Below are positions 6,208-44,383 of a stretch of DNA of 46,150 nucleotides, piece after piece (position 1 is the stretch's first letter; each line of letters begins with the position of its first letter). Source of the stretch: Desulfovibrio sp. (GTDB taxonomy: Bacteria; Bacillota; Dethiobacteria; DTU022); NCBI GenBank assembly GCA_020060545.1, contig JAGUZX010000122.1, forward strand, positions 1 through 46,150, read 5' to 3'. A program made the translations under genes and the position numbers. The notes below the pieces were generated by a model, which ran no database searches, had not been told where the DNA came from, and saw nothing but the letters and a program-made list of their open reading frames with translations.

Positions 6208-7071
6208 TCAGGCAATCCCACCGGGCAAGATAAGCGATACCAGGCGATCCAGGTCGTCGTCACTGTAGAAGTGAATTTCGATCAAGCCGCCTTTTTGAGC
6301 GCGGTTTATTTTGACTTTGGTCCCCAGCCGCCGCTGCAAGCTGGACTGCAGTTCTGTCCAGAGCGGATCGGGCGTGCCTGGGGCCTCGACCGCGGAAATT
6401 TTTTTCTCGCCCCGTGTAAGATTGCCCACCATTTTTTCCGCGTCACGAGCCGATAAACCTTTGGTGATAATTTGCATCGCCAGCCGTTGCTGCTGCTGCT
6501 CATCCGGCACAGCCAAAAGCGGGCGTGCCTGCCCGGCGCTTAAATCGCCCCTGATCACCGCCGCTATTACCGGTTGCGGTAAAGAAAGGAGGCGGACGGT
6601 GTTGGCGATGGCGGAACGGCTTCGCCCAACGCGGCGTGCCAGTTCTTCCTGGGTGAGCGTGAATTCTTCCATCAGGCGGCGATACGCAGTGGCTTCTTCG
6701 ATGGGGTTTAAATCTTCGCGCTGCAGGTTTTCGATAAGGGCGATTTCCAACATGGCGCTTTGGTCCAAGTCGCGCACTACCGCCGGGATTCTGGCCAGCC
6801 CGGCTATGATCGCGGCCCGGTAACGCCTTTCGCCGGCAACAAGAAAATACTCGTTTCCGCCGGCCGGGGTAACGATTACCGCCTGGACTACACCATGCTC
6901 GCGGATCGACTCGGCCAGTTCTTTAAGCTTTGTTTCGTCAAAGTTGGTGCGGGGTTGAAAAGGGTTCGGCTTGATCCTTTCCACGGGGATCTCGTGCGCT
7001 TCGGAGCCGCTTTCCGTTGCTTCCGGAATGAGCGCCCCCAGGCCGCGGCCCAGCCTCCTCTTTTCATTCAT
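6208..7071 (-). CDS. parB: chromosome-partitioning protein ParB (Spo0J)
   Basis: CTP-dependent DNA clamp that binds parS and loads SMC. The 287-residue protein starts with the characteristic basic segment MNEKRRLGRGLGALIPE, the ParA-ATPase-stimulating tail. The N-terminal CTPase domain follows (IKPNPFQPRTNFDE, then GERRYRAA and ENLQREDLNPIEEA). A helix-turn-helix region comes next (LTQEELARRVGRSRSAIANTVRL), and a C-terminal dimerisation domain ends near GLIEIHFYSDDDLDRLVSLIL. All CTP-binding motifs are intact. The ATG overlaps the soj stop by 4 bases (ATGA), so the pair is coupled. Two parS sites lie directly beyond its 3' end. Confidence 0.97.
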   Translation of the reverse strand: MNEKRRLGRGLGALIPEATESGSEAHEIPVERIKPNPFQPRTNFDETKLKELAESIREHGVVQAVIVTPAGGNEYFLVAGERRYRAAIIAGLARIPAVVRDLDQSAMLEIALIENLQREDLNPIEEATAYRRLMEEFTLTQEELARRVGRSRSAIANTVRLLSLPQPVIAAVIRGDLSAGQARPLLAVPDEQQQQRLAMQIITKGLSARDAEKMVGNLTRGEKKISAVEAPGTPDPLWTELQSSLQRRLGTKVKINRAQKGGLIEIHFYSDDDLDRLVSLILPGGIA

Positions 7072-7868: not shown

Positions 7869-8693
7869 TTATTGTTTGGTAAGGCGAATCGTAACCTGGA
7901 TATACCCGGGCTCGTTTTTTTCCTCCACTTCCGGAGAAAGACCTGCCGACTCGATCATTTTGACCGCTTCACGAATGGTGTTCAAAAATATCCTGATATC
8001 CTTGATGACGCTGCGCTGCCGCCTGTCAGGGACGGCGCTCTTCTCTGGCCCGATCAGCCGATCGATTTTTTGTTCCGTCTGGTTGACTGTAAGCCCCCGT
8101 TCAACGATCTCGAGGGCCATTTTTCGTTGAAGGTTTTCCGAGTTCAATTTAAGCAAGGCCCGGGCATGCCTTTCGGTCAGGTTTTCATTGAGAACCATCT
8201 GTTTTACCGATTCGGGCAGTCTCAGCAGCCTCAGTTTGTTAGCGATGGTAGACTGGCTCTTGCCGAGCCGTTGGGCCAGCACCTCCTGGGTCAGGTTGAA
8301 GGACTCCATCAGCCGGGCGTAGCCTGCAGCCTCTTCAATGAAGTTCAGGTTTTCCCGTTGCAGGTTTTCAATCAAGGCGATGGTAGCCATGGCGCTGTCG
8401 GAAATTTCTTTCACCACTGCGGCTATCTGTTTCCAGCCCAGGCTTTTGCAGGCCATTAGCCTTCTCTCGCCGACAACCAGTTCATACCCCCGGCCGGCCC
8501 TGCGGACAATAACCGGTTGCAGCAACCCGTATGTCTTAATCGATTGGGTCAGCTCCCGGATCTTATCCGGAGAAAATGTGCGCCTGGGTTGATATGGATT
8601 GGGTTCAATCTCGTCTATCTTGATCAAGGTTACTTTATCCTTTCCGGGGTCGCCTTCCAGCAAGGGGAACTTGTGGTCCCAGGTCTCTTTCAC
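7869..8693 (-). CDS. noc: ParB-like nucleoid occlusion protein Noc
   Basis: Second ParB-family protein, upstream of soj in the position of Noc in Firmicutes; Noc binds NBS sites and inhibits division over the nucleoid. The CTPase core is present (IEPNPYQPRRTFSPDKIREL, GERRLMACKSLG, ENLQRENLNFIEEA). The HTH segment with LGKSQSTIANKLRLLRLP is typical of Noc rather than Spo0J, as is the absence of the LGRGLGAL ParA-interaction tail. The GTG at 8691-8693 is chosen because AGGAAGG lies 11 bases upstream; the frame is open to a TTG at 8753 without a ribosome binding site, which would add 20 residues. Some clostridia have this paralogue without proven nucleoid-occlusion function, so the role is inferred. 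Confidence 0.87.
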   Translation of the reverse strand: MKETWDHKFPLLEGDPGKDKVTLIKIDEIEPNPYQPRRTFSPDKIRELTQSIKTYGLLQPVIVRRAGRGYELVVGERRLMACKSLGWKQIAAVVKEISDSAMATIALIENLQRENLNFIEEAAGYARLMESFNLTQEVLAQRLGKSQSTIANKLRLLRLPESVKQMVLNENLTERHARALLKLNSENLQRKMALEIVERGLTVNQTEQKIDRLIGPEKSAVPDRRQRSVIKDIRIFLNTIREAVKMIESAGLSPEVEEKNEPGYIQVTIRLTKQ

Positions 8694-8749
8694 GATCTTC
8701 ACCGCCTTCCTGATATGGAAATCTATTTGACAACCGGAAGGACATTCCT

Positions 8750-9490
8750 TCAAAAAGAAAAAGTTTTATGCCCCAGTGGTTTTTGGGCCGGCTTCCCCGG
8801 CGGCCTGGGGTAGTCGTCCGGCGTTGCTTTAATTTTCTCGATCAGAAAAAGGGTCCTCCCCTCTCCGGAGGGCAGTCGGTAGGCCCAGCTTTTCCTCACC
8901 TGCCCGCCGCATGCGGTTATGGCATCACCGGCCTGCTCCACTTCGCATAGCCCTTGCGCCCCTTTGTACATGATTAGCTCCCCGCCCGTTTGGAGAAGAG
9001 GCAGGGCCAGCTCCGCCAGGACCGCTGCGCCCGCTACGGCGCGGCAGGTGACATAGGCAAACCTCTCTCGATAAAGATGATTACGGCCCCAAGTTTCAGC
9101 CCGCCCCGGCAAAAAATAAACCTCCCGGAGCTTCATCATCGCAGTTGCGCGCCTTAAAAAATTTAGCTTGCGGCGGTTGGCGTCCATTAAAAAGAGGGGA
9201 CAGCGGGGCAGCCAAATCTTCAGGGGAATTCCAGGCAGGCCCGCACCCGTCCCCAGGTCAAGCAGTTCTCCCGGGGCCAGGTCAAGCACCGTAAGCGGAA
9301 AGAGGGAATCAAAGATATGTTTTCCAATCAGATCCGAAGCGTTGCGATCCCCCACCAGGCGTTGAGTTTGCAGGCCCTCCAACACCAGCGCCACAAAATG
9401 CAGCAGCTGCTCCTTCTGCATGCTGTCGGCCGCCAAGGAAAGTTTTTGAAGGGCCGCGTCGAGCAGCGGCGCCAACTCTTGCCGGGGCAT
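8750..9490 (-). CDS. rsmG: 16S rRNA (guanine-527-N7)-methyltransferase RsmG
   Basis: SAM-dependent methyltransferase for G527 of 16S rRNA (GidB). The Rossmann-like motif I LLDLGTGAGLPGIPLKI (about residues 77-93), the motif after it FLMDANRRKLNFLRRA, and CRAVA are all clear. The ATG at 9488-9490 has GGGGAGGAG at 10 bases, giving 246 residues; the frame extends to TTG 9511 but that is not needed. The C-terminal extension after IEKIKATP is Pro/Lys-rich (about 25 residues) and atypically long. It lies between mnmE and noc. The usual neighbour mnmG is absent from the 198-base gap upstream. Confidence 0.94.
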   Translation of the reverse strand: MPRQELAPLLDAALQKLSLAADSMQKEQLLHFVALVLEGLQTQRLVGDRNASDLIGKHIFDSLFPLTVLDLAPGELLDLGTGAGLPGIPLKIWLPRCPLFLMDANRRKLNFLRRATAMMKLREVYFLPGRAETWGRNHLYRERFAYVTCRAVAGAAVLAELALPLLQTGGELIMYKGAQGLCEVEQAGDAITACGGQVRKSWAYRLPSGEGRTLFLIEKIKATPDDYPRPPGKPAQKPLGHKTFSF

Positions 9491-37665: not shown

Positions 37666-37718
37666 AAACCGCCGGCGAAGCAAATGACCCGTCTTAACGG
37701 CCCGGTGAGGTGGAGACA

Positions 37719-38363
37719 TTGGAGGACCAGCAATCTCTTTTCGACCTGCTCGCTAACGGCGGCAGCGCCGCCGGCGGCGCTGAGGATCAGGGTGTGCAGC
37801 TTGGACTGCTTGAGCAGGAGTGCCTGCGGTGCGCATCGTGCGGTTTAAGAAGCGGCTGCCGGCAGGTCGTCTTCGGGGAGGGGAGCCCCCGCGCCCGCCT
37901 GATGCTGGTGGGGGAAGGCCCCGGGGCCGATGAAGACAGGCTGGGCAGGCCTTTCGTCGGCGCGGCGGGCCAGCTGCTGGACCGGATCCTGGAGGCGGTG
38001 CGGCTGAAGCGGGACGAAGTCTATATCGCCAATATCGTCAAATGCCGGCCGCCGTCAAACCGCCTGCCGGTCCCGGCCGAAGTGGAGCAGTGTTTGCCTC
38101 ACCTGAAGCGGCAAATCCAGGTAATCAATCCGGCCATTATTGTCTGCCTGGGGGCCCTGGCGACACGGACCCTCGTTGACCGGAGCGCTTCAATTACCGC
38201 CGTGCGCGGCCGGTGGAAGCAGCTCGGGGGGCGGTGGTACATGCCCACTTTTCATCCGGCCGCCTTGCTGAGGGATCCCGGCAAAAAAAGGCCGGCTTGG
38301 GAAGACTTTAAAGAGGTGGAAAAACGCTACCGCCAGTTTACGGATGGAGGAATCCCGGGATGA
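37719..38363 (+). CDS. family 4 uracil-DNA glycosylase
   Basis: Removes uracil from DNA; iron-sulfur type UDG of about 214 residues. The cluster-type cysteines are in CLRCASCGL, CRPP and VCLGALA regions; the active-site motif is GEGPGADEDRLGRPFVG, and motif 2 is HPAALLRDP. TTG at 37719 has GAGGTGGAG just upstream; the frame is open to a GTG at 37710 inside that site. The stop overlaps the response regulator ATG in ATGA, an unexpected pairing of base-excision repair with a signalling operon. Confidence 0.92.
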   Translation: MEDQQSLFDLLANGGSAAGGAEDQGVQLGLLEQECLRCASCGLRSGCRQVVFGEGSPRARLMLVGEGPGADEDRLGRPFVGAAGQLLDRILEAVRLKRDEVYIANIVKCRPPSNRLPVPAEVEQCLPHLKRQIQVINPAIIVCLGALATRTLVDRSASITAVRGRWKQLGGRWYMPTFHPAALLRDPGKKRPAWEDFKEVEKRYRQFTDGGIPG

Positions 38364-39052
38364 CCAAAGAAAAAATATTGATCGTCGATGACGAGAAGAC
38401 GCTGGTCAAGGCGCTAAAATTCAACCTGGAAAAGGAAGGATTCCGGGTGGAAGAGGCTTTTGACGGTGAAGAGGCGCTGCAGAAAGTTCTTGAAGCAAGC
38501 CCCGATATCGTGGTTTTGGACTTGATGCTGCCCGGGCTGGACGGGTTTGAGGTTTGCCGCCAGATCCGTAAAAAGCAGGAGATCCCGATTATCATGCTGA
38601 CGGCGCGGGGCGACGATATCGACAAGGTACTCGGCTTGGAGCTGGGAGCCGACGACTATATGACCAAACCGTTCAACCCCCGCGAGCTGGTAGCCCGGAT
38701 TAAAGCCATCTTAAGGCGCAGCGGCGCCCGGGAAGAGGGGTTGAAAAAACATATTCATACCGGGAACCTCCAAATCGATCTTTTGCAGCACCGGGTTCGA
38801 GCCGGGGACAAGGAGATCGATTTAACCTCCAAGGAATTCGCGCTTTTGAGTTTTCTCGCTGCCAACGCGGGCCGGGTCTATTCCCGGGAACAGCTCCTGG
38901 AGCAGGTTTGGGGCTATAATTACTATGGTGATGCGCGGACCGTGGATGTGCATATCCGGCACCTGCGCGAAAAAATCGAGGCAGAACCGGGCAACCCGGA
39001 GCTGATTATTACGGTGTGGGGGACCGGCTACAAGTTTAGGGAGGAGCTTTGA
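38360..39052 (+). CDS. OmpR-family response regulator
   Basis: Two-component response regulator, 230 residues: receiver domain (1-120) with acidic pair DD (10-11), phospho-acceptor Asp54 in VVLDLMLPG, conserved Thr and Lys in LTARG and MTKPF. A winged-helix DNA-binding domain follows (about 135-230), with EIDLTSKEFALLSFLAANAGRVYSREQLLEQVWGY and TVDVHIRHLREKIE. The overall pattern is PhoP/WalR-like. It overlaps the UDG stop and the kinase start, so all three are coupled. Its regulon is unknown. Confidence 0.94.
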   Translation: MTKEKILIVDDEKTLVKALKFNLEKEGFRVEEAFDGEEALQKVLEASPDIVVLDLMLPGLDGFEVCRQIRKKQEIPIIMLTARGDDIDKVLGLELGADDYMTKPFNPRELVARIKAILRRSGAREEGLKKHIHTGNLQIDLLQHRVRAGDKEIDLTSKEFALLSFLAANAGRVYSREQLLEQVWGYNYYGDARTVDVHIRHLREKIEAEPGNPELIITVWGTGYKFREEL

Positions 39053-40464
39053 TGTTCAGATTCCGCAGCATCCGCTCCCGCCTGACGGTTACTTTTCTGG
39101 CGATTATCGTGGCGGTAATGTTTATTATCAGCCTTTTTTTATATAATTTACTGCAGCGTTATTATCAGAACGGGCTGCAGGACAGCCTCACCCGTTCCGG
39201 GAACCTGGCGGCGGAATTCGTGGCCGGCCACCTGCGGGAGCAAACGGACCCGTCGGTAAGTTTGAGCCGGTTTGCGGCAAACTTCAGCCGCCAGTCCCGC
39301 GCCCGGGTCATTTTTATCAACCGCCAGGGCATCGTGGTCGGCGATTCCGAGCGCATCGGAGGGCTCCTCGGCCAGCCGTTAAACCGCGACGAGGTATTGA
39401 GCGCCCTCGAAGGCAGGGTGGGCACCAGTGTCCAGTACAGTGCGACGCTCCGGCAGCGGGTGATGCAGGTAGCCGTACCGGTTCAGGGTGAAGGAGGCGA
39501 CCTGGTCGGCGCGGTTTTTCTGTCGGCTTCCATGCAGGAAATTAACGTGATTTTAAGCGCGGTCTTGCGTTTTCTGTTTTTTACTACTTTAGTTGCCATG
39601 GCGGTGGTCGGGGGAGGCTCGGTGATCCTGGCGCGCCGTTTTACCGGGCCGCTGGAAGTGCTGACCGCGGCGGCCGGCCGGATGGGAGAGGGGAAGCTCG
39701 ACCAGCGGGTTGAAGTCTCTTCCCGGGACGAAATCGGCCAACTGGCGGCGCAGTTGAACATTATGGCGGAACGGCTTAATTTTTATACCAGCAATTTAAA
39801 GCATTTTGCCGCCAACGTCTCTCATGAACTGCGCACCCCCCTGACCTCGTTAAGCCTGCTGGCCAAGTCCCTGCAGGAATATGAGATGGAGCCGGAGCAG
39901 CGCCAGGAGTTCCTGGCGGACCTGGACCGGGAGCTGGACCGGTTGATTGCGCTGGTCCACGACCTGCTGGAGCTGACCAGGCTGGAAGAAGGGGAGATCC
40001 AGCGGGAAAAGATCGCCCTGGATGAACTGCTGCGGGAGATCATCAACCAGGTTTCCCCGCGTTTTGTCCGGCAGGGCCTGCGCCTGATCAGCGATCTGCC
40101 GGCAAAAGGCGTCTTTGTTGCCGGTTCGCCCCCGCATTTGCGCCAGGCGGTGCACAATCTCCTGGACAACGCCCTCAAATATACCTCTCCGGGCGGTTGG
40201 GTGAGGGTGTCGCTATGGCTGGAAAAGGACAAGGCCGGTGTAAAAATCGAAGATACAGGCCACGGGATCCCGGTGAAAGACTTGCCGCATATCTTCGAGC
40301 GGTTTTACCGGGTCGACCAGGCCCGTTCGCGCGAAATGGGGGGGACGGGACTGGGCCTGGCTATCGTCAAGGAGACGATTGACGCCCATGGGGGAAAAGT
40401 TTGGGCTGAAAGCAAAAAGGGCCAGGGAAGCGCTTTTCATTTCACTTTGCCCCTGGTTTATTAA
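39052..40464 (+). CDS. sensor histidine kinase (HAMP, HisKA, HATPase)
   Basis: Membrane sensor kinase of 470 residues paired with the preceding regulator. TM1 is about residues 12-33, an extracytoplasmic sensor loop about 34-165, and TM2 about 168-190. A HAMP domain follows (about 193-243). HisKA has the phospho-acceptor His258 in NVSHELRTPLTSL. The ATPase domain runs from about 355, with DNALKYTSPGG (N box), EDTGHGIP and GTGLGLAIVKETIDAHGG. ATG at 39052 overlaps the regulator stop by one base. It resembles PhoR/WalK kinases; the signal is unknown. Confidence 0.93.
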   Translation: MFRFRSIRSRLTVTFLAIIVAVMFIISLFLYNLLQRYYQNGLQDSLTRSGNLAAEFVAGHLREQTDPSVSLSRFAANFSRQSRARVIFINRQGIVVGDSERIGGLLGQPLNRDEVLSALEGRVGTSVQYSATLRQRVMQVAVPVQGEGGDLVGAVFLSASMQEINVILSAVLRFLFFTTLVAMAVVGGGSVILARRFTGPLEVLTAAAGRMGEGKLDQRVEVSSRDEIGQLAAQLNIMAERLNFYTSNLKHFAANVSHELRTPLTSLSLLAKSLQEYEMEPEQRQEFLADLDRELDRLIALVHDLLELTRLEEGEIQREKIALDELLREIINQVSPRFVRQGLRLISDLPAKGVFVAGSPPHLRQAVHNLLDNALKYTSPGGWVRVSLWLEKDKAGVKIEDTGHGIPVKDLPHIFERFYRVDQARSREMGGTGLGLAIVKETIDAHGGKVWAESKKGQGSAFHFTLPLVY

Positions 40465-40565
40465 CGATAATTAATTTATTTTTAAAATACGAGTAAATTA
40501 ATCGGCTGTGAAAAGTGATACAATGCTAGTGCCCATTAAAGGCAGTATCTACAGGGGGCCGGCAC
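40465..40565. promoter_or_regulatory. AT-rich gap, possible promoter for the GerMN gene
   Basis: Short AT-rich spacer. GATACAAT at 40517-40524 could be a -10 element; it also resembles the CATACAnT -10 of sporulation sigma-E, but no convincing -35 sits at the expected spacing, so the sigma factor cannot be assigned. ATG of the next gene is at 40566. Confidence 0.35.
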
Positions 40566-42608
40566 ATGAAGCGGATCCAACCTTACTATTTTTTGATCGC
40601 TCTGGCAGCCCTGTTTTTGATCGGCGGCCTGTTTCTCTTCATGATGCGCCATTTCCCCTCCACCTTACAAAAAGGCGCGCCGGTGGAACCGAAAATCCTT
40701 CTCCACGACAACAGCCTGTATGAGTTTTGGTTTGCCAACGCCGATCTTTATGACCTAAGCGTTGACCGCAACGTCACCGGCATTTTATTCAGTTCCAGCG
40801 CCAAAAAGGTCAGCCTGCTGGATCGGGAAAGGAGACTGCGCTGGGAGAAAAATTTTCATACGGAACCGCTGCAGGCCAAAATTTCTGCATGCGGGAATTA
40901 TCTGGCCGTGGGAACCGCGGGCGGCAATCTTTTTTTCATGTCCACCAACCAGCAGCTTTGGTGGGAGAAAGAGCTGGGCGATCCCGTATACCAGCTGACA
41001 GTATCCGCCAACGGCAAATGGGTCGCCGCCGGGCAGGGGAGGCAGGACTCACCTGAGCACCGCCTGGACCTGTACGATCAAAACGGTGTTTTGAAAAGCA
41101 GTATTGAGACGGGGCCGCTGCTGAAAGTGTTTTTGGTAGGAGAGCAGCCGGACCAGGGGAGAATCTTTTTCAGCTGGCTTAAGGGAGATACAGTCATTAC
41201 CGCTGCCGCCAGCCTGGAAGGGGAGCTTTTATGGTCGCAGGAGGACGCCGCCCTGGCCGCGATTTCGCGGACTGGAAACAGGCTGGCGGCTGTACAAGGC
41301 CGAAAACTGGTAATTTTCAACCACCTCGGCCAGTTTCTTTGGGAAGAAACGCTGCCATTTAAAATAACGGCGCTGACCTTTAACCCCCAAAACCACAGTA
41401 TCCTGGTCTACGGTGACGGGGAAGGCGGCTTCGCCAATTTTTATTCCTTTAACGACGCCGGAGATCTGCTGTGGCAAAAGCGGATCGCCGACGGATCCCT
41501 CTTTGCCTTTACGGCTGACGGCCGCCGGATAATCACGAGCTCATGGCGGCACTACAAGGATGATTTCAGCCGGATGGTGCTTTACGACGAGAACGGCGAC
41601 GAGTTGAACCGTTGGGAAGTGGCCATCAGGGTGGAATACCTGGTAGTGGCCGGAAACCGCCGTTTCGTGGTCTTGGGCGGCGAAGACGGCTACATTGATC
41701 TGATTGACCTTGAAGCCCAACCGGGCCGGGCGGAGAATACCGCCCCGGCGCCTCCCTTTTACAGCCCCGTGGTGGTTAAGCCTGCGGATGATCAATCCTG
41801 GGTAACGCTCTATTTTTACGAGACTTCTTACCTCGTTCCTGTCGCCAGGTCGATCAGCCAAACTGAAAACCGGATCCGTGCCGCCATTGACGAACTGATT
41901 CGCGGCCCCGCCAGGGACAGCGCTCTTTACCGGACCATCCCCGACAAGGAGATGCAGATCGAGGTGCGCTTTAATCAAGAAACGGGGCAACTTACCTTGG
42001 AACTTCCGCCGGAGCTGGCCCAGGTCGCCGGAGCAGCCCAGAGCATATCGATCCTGGACTCGCTGCGCCTGACCATGGCCCAATTCGCCGAAATACGGGA
42101 GATCTTTCTGACTGTGGCTCACAAACCGATCGAGATTTTCGGCGACGGGCTCTCCCTGGAGCAGCCCCTGCTTCCCTACCGCTGGCGCCAGCCGGTCTTT
42201 ATTCCCGTGCGGCTGGGAGAGCGCTATTACCTTGTCCCCCGGGAAGCACGGGAACTGGAAATCGAGCAAAGAGACCTGGACGGCTTGCTCCAGGCGGTGG
42301 TACGCAAATGCCGCGCTTTGTACTTTATCCCGGGTGACCTGCGCCTGCTTGGCGTCCAGATCGCCGCCGGCAGTGTCAAAATCAATGTCAACAGCTCTCT
42401 GAAGATGCTTTTCCCCGAAAAAGGAGGGGAAGAGGAGAAGCTGCAGGCGGCGCTGCTCCTGGAGGCGCTCTTTTTGACCGCATTTGAGAACAGCAGCTTC
42501 GGTAATCTCGAAATTCTCGTGGAAGGTGAAAGCTGGATCCCCCCCCAAGGCTATCCTTCGCTGAGCCGTGTCTTCCACCGCCCTTATTATTTAAACCCCG
42601 AACTGTAA
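40566..42608 (+). CDS. membrane-anchored beta-propeller protein with GerMN domains
   Basis: 680-residue protein with an N-terminal membrane anchor (about residues 8-30). A repetitive PQQ/WD-type beta-propeller region follows (about 60-390), with recurrent LLW..EL, GDLLWQKRI and ISACGNYLAVGTAGG type blades. From about residue 400 comes a GerMN domain (VTLYFYETSYLVPVARSI ... LTLELPPEL) and then a second GerMN-like segment (about 540-680). GerMN domains occur in the spore germination protein GerM and in lipoproteins beside WalRK/LpqB-like kinases; LpqB itself combines GerMN with a propeller and sits with the MtrAB kinase. The position after the two-component pair supports a similar accessory role, which is inference. 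Confidence 0.82.
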   Translation: MKRIQPYYFLIALAALFLIGGLFLFMMRHFPSTLQKGAPVEPKILLHDNSLYEFWFANADLYDLSVDRNVTGILFSSSAKKVSLLDRERRLRWEKNFHTEPLQAKISACGNYLAVGTAGGNLFFMSTNQQLWWEKELGDPVYQLTVSANGKWVAAGQGRQDSPEHRLDLYDQNGVLKSSIETGPLLKVFLVGEQPDQGRIFFSWLKGDTVITAAASLEGELLWSQEDAALAAISRTGNRLAAVQGRKLVIFNHLGQFLWEETLPFKITALTFNPQNHSILVYGDGEGGFANFYSFNDAGDLLWQKRIADGSLFAFTADGRRIITSSWRHYKDDFSRMVLYDENGDELNRWEVAIRVEYLVVAGNRRFVVLGGEDGYIDLIDLEAQPGRAENTAPAPPFYSPVVVKPADDQSWVTLYFYETSYLVPVARSISQTENRIRAAIDELIRGPARDSALYRTIPDKEMQIEVRFNQETGQLTLELPPELAQVAGAAQSISILDSLRLTMAQFAEIREIFLTVAHKPIEIFGDGLSLEQPLLPYRWRQPVFIPVRLGERYYLVPREARELEIEQRDLDGLLQAVVRKCRALYFIPGDLRLLGVQIAAGSVKINVNSSLKMLFPEKGGEEEKLQAALLLEALFLTAFENSSFGNLEILVEGESWIPPQGYPSLSRVFHRPYYLNPEL

Positions 42609-42616
42609 ATAATGAT

Positions 42617-42645
42617 TTGTCATTTCCATAATTTTGGGCTAAAAT
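42617..42645 (+). promoter_or_regulatory. argS promoter
   Basis: TTGTCA, 17 bases, TAAAAT, with the -10 ending 28 bases before the argS ATG. One mismatch in each hexamer. Confidence 0.75.
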
Positions 42646-42673: not shown

Positions 42674-44383
42674 ATGTTCAAAGCCAAGGAAGAAATCGGC
42701 GCGCTCCTGGAGCCGCTGGTAGCGCTGGAGGCATCCAGGATTAGCGAACTGCTGGAGGTTCCGCCCGACCCGGAGTTCGGGGATCTTGCCTTTCCCTGCT
42801 ATGTCCTGGCTTCCCGCAGGCAGCAGGCCCCGGCCTCCATCGCCGCTTCCTTAAGCCAGGTTTTATCCGGCCGGCGGGGTGTCTTCTGGGAGAAGGCGGT
42901 GCCGAAGGGGCCGTACCTTAACTTTTTCATCGACCCTCTCTCTTTCGGGCGGGAGGTGCTGCGGCAGGTTTTGTCCCGGCGGGCGGATTACGGCAGGAGC
43001 AGCCGGGGCAGAGGCCAAACGGTGGTCATCGATTACTCGTCGCCCAATATCGCCAAGCCTTTCGGGATCGGGCATATCCGCTCGACGGTAATCGGGCATG
43101 CCCTTTACCTCATCTTTGAGGCTTTGGGCTACCGCTGTATCGGCATCAATCACCTCGGCGACTGGGGGACCCAGTTCGGGAAGCTGATCGTCTCTTTCAA
43201 GCGCTGGGGCGATGAGGAGAGGCTCAGCGAGGATCCGGTTAACTATCTCTACCAACTTTATGTTAAGTTTCACCAGCGCTCCGAAACGGATCCCGCCCTG
43301 GAAGACGAGGCGCGGTTATGGTTTAAAAAACTGGAGGAGGGCGAAGCGGAAGCGGTTGCCGCCTGGTCGCGCTTCCGGCGCCTCAGCCTGGAGAATTACG
43401 CCGGCATTTACGATCTGCTGGGCATAAAGTTCGATTACTTTCACGGCGAGAGTCACTATAACGATCTCCTGGATGATACAATCCGGCTGGCCTTAAGCAA
43501 AGGGATCGCCCGGGAAAGTGAAGGGGCGCTCATCGTTGACCTGGAGAAGTACGGCCTGCCCCCGGTAATGCTGCGCAAGAAGGACGGGGCCACCCTCTAT
43601 ATCACCCGGGACCTGGCCGCGGCAATCTACCGTTACGAAACCTTCGGGTTCGCCAAGGCGCTTTACGTGGTCGGTGCCGAACAGAAGCTGCATTTCCAGC
43701 AGCTCTTCAAGATCCTGGAGCTGCTCGGGTTCGAGTGGGCGCATTCTTGCGTCCATGTGCCTTTCGGCCTGATCCGTTTTAAAGAGGGCCGCATGTCCAC
43801 CCGGGACGGGAATATCATTTTCCTGCAGGAGGTCCTCCAGCGTTCGATTAACCTGGCCCGCGAGATCATCGAAGATAAAAACCCGGACCTGGCGGACAAA
43901 AGCGCCGCCGCCCTGGCGGTGGGGCTGGGGGCTGTCCGCTTCGGGGACTTAAGCAACGACCGGATTAAAGATGTTGAATTCGACTGGGACAAAGTCCTTG
44001 ATTTTTCTGGAGAGACGGCGGCTTATATCCAGTACGCCCATGCCCGTATCTGCAGCATCCTGCGCAAAGCCGCGGGAGCCGACCTGGCCTGGGAGGAGGG
44101 CCTGGCCGATTTATTGCAGCAGGAAGAAGAGAAAGCCTTGATCAAAGCGCTGGCAGTTTTGCCGGAGAAGGTGGAAGCCGCGGCGGAAGGGTACCGCCCT
44201 TCAGTGATCGCCCGTTACCTGGTCGAAGTGGCCCGGGAATTCAACCGGTTTTACCACCAGTGCCCCGTGTTGAGCAGCGATTCGGCGCTGCAGAAAGCGC
44301 GCCTCCTTTTAATCGACGCTGCCCGCCAGGTGCTGGTCAACGGGCTGGGGCTGCTCGGGATCGCCGCTCCCGCAGAGATGTAG
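42674..44383 (+). CDS. argS: arginyl-tRNA synthetase
   Basis: Class I aminoacyl-tRNA synthetase for arginine, 569 residues. The N-terminal Add-1 domain is followed by the HIGH-like motif (here FGIGHIRST, usual FHVGHLRST), NHLGDWGTQFG, the KMSKS-equivalent GRMSTRDGNIIFL and a C-terminal anticodon-binding domain ending VNGLGLLGIAAPAEM. AAAGGGG lies upstream of the ATG. It is followed by serS and, farther on, by a tRNA-Arg gene. Confidence 0.97.
   Translation: MFKAKEEIGALLEPLVALEASRISELLEVPPDPEFGDLAFPCYVLASRRQQAPASIAASLSQVLSGRRGVFWEKAVPKGPYLNFFIDPLSFGREVLRQVLSRRADYGRSSRGRGQTVVIDYSSPNIAKPFGIGHIRSTVIGHALYLIFEALGYRCIGINHLGDWGTQFGKLIVSFKRWGDEERLSEDPVNYLYQLYVKFHQRSETDPALEDEARLWFKKLEEGEAEAVAAWSRFRRLSLENYAGIYDLLGIKFDYFHGESHYNDLLDDTIRLALSKGIARESEGALIVDLEKYGLPPVMLRKKDGATLYITRDLAAAIYRYETFGFAKALYVVGAEQKLHFQQLFKILELLGFEWAHSCVHVPFGLIRFKEGRMSTRDGNIIFLQEVLQRSINLAREIIEDKNPDLADKSAAALAVGLGAVRFGDLSNDRIKDVEFDWDKVLDFSGETAAYIQYAHARICSILRKAAGADLAWEEGLADLLQQEEEKALIKALAVLPEKVEAAAEGYRPSVIARYLVEVAREFNRFYHQCPVLSSDSALQKARLLLIDAARQVLVNGLGLLGIAAPAEM

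Follow-up and report, generated by a model that had tools for sequence, protein, structure and literature searches.

The window analysed here, a stretch of 46,150 nucleotides, encodes directly after a sensor histidine kinase (HK) a conserved protein in which a membrane anchor and an eight-bladed β-propeller are joined to two GerMN domains; we call this accessory protein PROP. We consider it likely that PROP serves, on the outside, as the third component of a Dethiobacteria-specific two-component system of the WalK family, and that PROP touches the Cache sensor of the adjacent HK and tunes its kinase/phosphatase balance. According to this model, PROP would be held outside the cell by a transmembrane helix in the window genome, or by a lipid as in the majority of the other families, would probably contact the sensor, most likely through the propeller, and would probably bind the wall or other envelope proteins through its GerMN pair. 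We favor the kinase-accessory reading because of the strict linkage between the two genes (56 of 56 loci) and the pattern of natural losses of PROP. Overall, the comparisons indicate that PROP is a genuine kinase accessory, conserved and novel in architecture, whose mechanism is suggested by co-loss. The architecture, the conserved order of the genes, the lack of a tie to a sporulation marker, the presence of canonical WalRK alongside and the pattern of losses are observed; what we infer are the contact with the sensor, the direction of regulation, the ligand and an envelope regulon. Open-licence PMC papers yielded no account of such a GerMN or propeller protein in Dethiobacteria, which is no proof of absence in print.

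Domain architecture and fold of PROP

The reading of the locus made from the sequence alone had proposed a membrane anchor, a propeller, a GerMN domain and a second GerMN-like part, and Pfam and AlphaFold2 agree on this arrangement within a genuine open reading frame encoding 680 residues (40566–42608, forward strand, as are its parts and the neighboring genes between 37710 and 44383 given below). The N-terminal transmembrane anchor (residues 7–29, 40584–40652) is a helix in the model. It is followed, just outside the membrane, by a PVEP motif (residues 39–42, 40680–40691), the P42 of which is invariant in 31 of 31 sequences; PVEP-like motifs follow the anchor in the orthologues as well. The propeller occupies residues ~51–386 (40716–41723) and is supported by Pfam, with a PQQ_2/DUF5711-type match from about residue 74, by the model and by matches to PDB structures. 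GerMN domain 1 (residues ~411–540, 41796–42185) gives a Pfam match at 414–522 with an E-value of 2.3e-15 in the scan of the whole protein and scores 41.8 bits (cut-off 23) when scanned alone. GerMN domain 2 (residues ~543–680, 42192–42605) is barely over the same cut-off when scanned alone (24.0 versus 23 bits), and the AlphaFold2 model agrees with the assignment. This domain has a conserved NPE end, in which N677 and E679 are invariant among the 31 sequences.

The AlphaFold2 model of PROP, built with 31 sequences (mean pLDDT 85.6, pTM 0.79), has 31 propeller strands at residues 61–381 and a short strand at 55–56, which we interpret as eight blades with four strands each; its GerMN domains, at 411–540 and 543–652, both have the order β-β-α-β-β-α-β. 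PDB propellers align to residues ~51–384 of the model, the best with a Z-score of 33.7 and an rmsd of 2.4 over 313 residues. These matches represent generic WD40/PQQ folds, BamB included, and the best PDB match of the GerMN part is 6gzb.

The tether differs between families. None of the 17 orthologues fetched from families f1 and f4 has a lipobox; a hydrophobic stretch at the N terminus takes its place. Among the 39 orthologues from outside these two families, 29 fit the strict lipobox pattern, nine have a hydrophobic stretch that ends in a Cys, with a looser lipobox, and one has its start cut off. LpqB, too, has a lipoprotein anchor. Promoter-like sites were noticed at 40461–40488 before PROP (9/12) and at 42617–42645 before argS (10/12), so PROP may also be expressed separately from the kinase.

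The two-component system next to PROP

A conserved upstream neighbor is uracil-DNA glycosylase (UDG; 37710–38363; Pfam UDG, 7.9e-38). Next come an OmpR-family response regulator (RR; 38360–39052; Response_reg 3.1e-33, Trans_reg_C 1.6e-32), whose best NCBIfam model is YycF at 296 bits, under the cut-off of 340, and the HK (39049–40464). The HK is listed with a TTG start, an ATG at 39052 being also possible, and according to Pfam and the AlphaFold2 model (mean pLDDT 81.9) it has the architecture TM1-Cache_WalK-TM2-HAMP-HisKA-HATPase. Its extracytoplasmic sensor (residues ~36–168, 39154–39552) matches Cache_WalK at 78–160 with an E-value of 5.4e-08 and 33.6 bits (cut-off 27), and Pfam detects no PAS domain in the kinase. 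The kinase had been described beforehand as PhoR-like. The position of PROP directly after it is correct, but the label is a loose one, as the sensor is of the Cache_WalK type and none of the 25 NCBIfam kinase models listed for the HK reaches its cut-off. Downstream of PROP lie argS (42674–44383; identified by Pfam and by neighborhood comparison) and then serS.

The window genome has, on contig C21, a separate complete WalRK-YycH-YycI-HtrA locus, so the system next to PROP is a second one; a match to a canonical-type WalK sensor (E < 1e-40) is likewise present in most genomes of the class. In the tree, 25 window-type rows (100/100) and 18 WalRK rows (100/99) form separate groups that are joined only at 89/53. 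The possibility that the window system is the WalRK orthologue of its genome was rejected on account of both the separate locus and the separate groups. The first tree was computed without W_L041, W_L044, W_L053, W_L054, W_L067, oth_L199 and own_L139, whose H-box had been missed by the motif search, and the second tree included them.

Distribution and linkage

Of 97 genomes from the class of the window (G000–G096), 79 contain PROP, by matches that either take in the propeller or belong to a full-length copy that is split, contig-end fragments being counted. Across 398 genomes sampled from the phylum, full-length matches are found only inside this class, probably Dethiobacteria; outside it, E < 1e-20 was reached only by GerMN-only matches and one propeller-only match. 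Scanning 84,980 species genomes with a pattern gave 42 loci with titles naming Dethiobacter, Dethiobacter alkaliphilus (class Dethiobacteria according to NCBI), Syntrophomonadaceae, Clostridia/Clostridiales/Clostridium, Bacillota, Firmicutes and, in one case, Desulfovibrio. A single-sequence PROP scan of genome contigs gave no match, and neither did the plasmid collection.

The 57 neighborhoods fetched cover 56 of the 79 PROP genomes and one GerMN-only case. The HK lies immediately 5′ of PROP in all 56 orthologue loci, and the RR is also present in 54 of them, the contig beginning inside the HK in the other two. Thus, the co-occurrence of the three genes among relatives, proposed as the check on the initial idea, is observed, and the lack of linkage that would have spoken against it is not. 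The conserved order is UDG-RR-HK-PROP-ArgS-SerS. An HK without PROP does occur, whereas PROP without the HK was found in none of the 56 loci. Of 20 loci from other Bacillota (19 selected by a GerMN match and one by a propeller match), none had an RR-HK pair at hand, and nearby RR-like matches were weak, with at most 36% identity. At two Dethiobacteria loci, an extra lipoprotein-like, GerM-like gene with two GerMN domains lies between PROP and argS (L065:10073-11050 and L083:5561-6604); it encodes 325 residues in G089 and 347 in G074. The fused GerMN pair of PROP may have come from this gene or may be assisted by its product.

Conservation of order extends to the housekeeping neighbors argS and serS. 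Linkage by itself is therefore weak evidence for a partnership with the kinase. The order would also suit a PROP with a general function in the envelope or in wall binding, or a BamB-like assembly factor, that lies in this operon for the sake of joint expression and does not touch the kinase. The PQQ/BamB-like character of the propeller also fits such a role.

Natural losses of PROP and divergence of the kinase sensor

PROP is absent from 18 of the 97 class genomes, although the losses are read from mostly fragmented assemblies. In six genomes (G012, G049, G056, G060, G067 and G068), UDG-RR-HK is followed directly by argS, so that PROP alone is gone. In G092 (a single genome), PROP is gone and the HK is reduced to 371 residues without a sensor, TM1 being joined to TM2. 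In G047 (also a single genome), RR, HK and PROP are all missing and argS directly follows UDG. The contig stops in the HK or within about 330 bases of it in G021, G044, G064 and G082. Neither a PROP nor an argS match was found in G019, G042, G084 and G086, so the absence of PROP there is uninformative; this argS check covered the PROP-less genomes other than G041 and G069. On the tree, the three PROP-less rows amount to three changes. The sensorless kinase, seen at L226:4386-5501 with argS still next to it, is possibly a constitutive or cytoplasmically controlled form.

A signal in the sensor comes from genus g29, which counts as one event in five genomes, including G064, where the contig ends about 190 bp after the HK and PROP could not be judged. 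The ratio of sensor to core identity in the g29 HKs is 0.68–0.81, compared with 0.96 ± 0.04 in 15 PROP-containing f5 relatives. The kinase core itself is unchanged (identity of 0.67–0.71 versus 0.62–0.74 in PROP-containing relatives). Against an outgroup panel (n = 37), the identity of the g29 sensor is 0.382 versus 0.454 ± 0.016, and that of the core 0.455 versus 0.453. Moreover, the WalK sensor of the same genus is not accelerated, having 42–45% identity to WalK of the window genome, compared with 41–47% in other f5 members. G049 has sensor divergence of the same kind, if milder, relative to G045. In G012, on the other hand, PROP was lost without extra sensor divergence (ratio of 0.97 versus 0.88 ± 0.025). 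Faster evolution of the sensor, and not of the kinase core, is thus seen in two of the three lineages with PROP-only loss. G045, with its less diverged HK sensor, encodes a PROP of 392 residues that consists of the propeller only, hinting that it is the propeller that faces the kinase. Mirror-tree distances are not specific for propeller and sensor: with ArgS taken into account, the partial r is 0.40 for these two and 0.47 for propeller and core.

Taken together, the natural losses point to the outside sensor of the HK as the partner of PROP. The unchanged sensor of G012 would fit a general envelope protein that shares only its expression with the kinase. However, PROP was seen without the HK in none of the 56 loci, and the HK sensor is accelerated or deleted in most PROP losses, which makes this explanation rather unlikely in our estimation.

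Relationship to LpqB-MtrAB

The initial comparison had drawn a parallel with the actinobacterial LpqB-MtrAB system; such an arrangement is otherwise most familiar from the mycobacterial lipoprotein LpqB. In its general plan this parallel stands. The Nocardia and Tsukamurella loci have the order mtrA-mtrB-lpqB, that is, RR-HK-accessory; the PROP gene likewise directly follows the kinase gene, its product is tethered outside the membrane, both accessories combine GerMN with a propeller, and both kinases lack PAS. Family searches and domain order, on the other hand, speak against PROP being an LpqB. Against NF010141, the equivalog model of LpqB (cut-off 602), genuine LpqBs reach 739 and 666, whereas among five PROPs one scored 13 bits and four had no match at an E-value of 1. 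No LpqB/Gmad1 match reaches threshold in PROP, and the hhalign probability between LpqB and PROP is 6%. The reversed domain order noted earlier is confirmed: in Nocardia LpqB, GerMN (184–304) precedes the Gmad1 propeller (338–605), whereas in PROP the propeller precedes two GerMN domains. LpqB also differs in having a single GerMN domain, with ~180 residues without a Pfam match before it. These results rule out PROP as a member of the LpqB family. LpqB was not among the Foldseek or VIA matches listed for PROP, although this proves nothing.

Could the whole module still be a divergent MtrAB-LpqB homologue, related by common descent and reshaped by domain shuffling? The shared layout and domain types would be accounted for, the MtrB model aligns along nearly the full length of the PAS-less window HK, and a single clade of window-type kinases and MtrAB is not rejected (AU p 0.264, with only two MtrAB rows on a long branch). 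We nevertheless regard common descent as improbable. In addition to the reversed order, the second GerMN domain and the family searches, the best tree places the window system next to WalRK, even if weakly, and the absence of PAS looks secondary. Orthologous kinases of family f8 (L071, L072, L074 and L077) are ~595–600 residues long, a size that fits a PAS domain, which is present in the one checked (L072), and three f8 rows branch first inside the window-type group. PAS was thus probably lost later within the window-type kinases. The earlier idea of an independent kinase accessory is supported by linkage and losses as regards the accessory role; independence is likely for the accessory itself but only possible for the system, whose kinases may share a recent origin with MtrAB.

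We hold with moderate confidence that PROP works like LpqB. Nguyen 2010 and Hoskisson 2006 are cited in the literature on LpqB as a modulator and, to our knowledge, the mechanism by which LpqB acts on MtrB is still open. LpqB modulates MtrB in M. smegmatis (PMC13189361), and a 2025 preprint describes it as a likely periplasmic modulator (PMC12338722).

Other propeller and GerMN proteins

WalRK-YycH-YycI of Bacilli resembles the window system in having a Cache_WalK kinase and, farther down the operon, genes for outside accessories. However, YycH and YycI share no Pfam family with PROP, and the WalRK kinase has a cytoplasmic PAS domain. GerM has a role in sporulation and is not known to have a propeller; it shares tandem GerMN domains with PROP, in which these are fused after a propeller and have no tie to the sporulation marker SpoIVA. 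The nearest Firmicute precedent, to judge from its description, is WalA-WalRK of C. difficile, in which a PAS-less WalK is accompanied by an operon lipoprotein with a predicted propeller, and the authors themselves draw the MtrAB parallel (PMC9210968). There, walA precedes walR and WalA serves the essential WalRK itself, and the passages describing it make no mention of GerMN (PMC9210968). According to a commentary, homologues of WalA are known only from C. difficile (PMC10601699).

These likenesses suggest that WalK-type kinases repeatedly gain outside propeller partners (LpqB, WalA and PROP). More tentatively, propeller plus GerMN might be a sensing module of the cell exterior that recurs because WalK/MtrB-type kinases of two phyla each recruited it on their own, with the domains in a different order; the propeller would dock on the sensor and GerMN would read the wall. 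We find this conceivable but by no means the expected outcome. If it is true, the Dethiobacteria protein allows the working of LpqB to be examined in a separate evolutionary line. With a module of reversed order in a distant phylum, the propeller-only PROP, the PROP-only losses and the co-loss of PROP and sensor, one can ask by experiment which of the domains contacts the kinase and what GerMN contributes.

That PROP is instead a spore or germination factor standing next to a kinase by chance, as was also suggested at the outset, is very improbable. GerMN takes its name from GerM, and the window genome encodes double-GerMN proteins at other places too, but SpoIVA (found in 49 of the 97 class genomes) is unrelated to PROP. 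Among genomes of the class with a completeness of 90% or more, those with PROP comprise 32 that have SpoIVA and 21 that do not, and those lacking PROP comprise 6 and 2 (Fisher p 0.70); several genera without SpoIVA keep full-length PROP. A vegetative signaling role is thus likely for a protein whose top-scoring Pfam family is named for sporulation/germination.

Wider setting of the locus

Ddl lies upstream of UDG-RR-HK-PROP and, farther out, there is a FemAB-like gene on the opposite strand. The window covers the origin region, with dnaA, dnaN, a recF-like gene, gyrB, gyrA, parA and two parB-like genes. The products of the latter (6208–7071 and 7869–8753, reverse strand), on either side of ParA, are presumably ParB and Noc.
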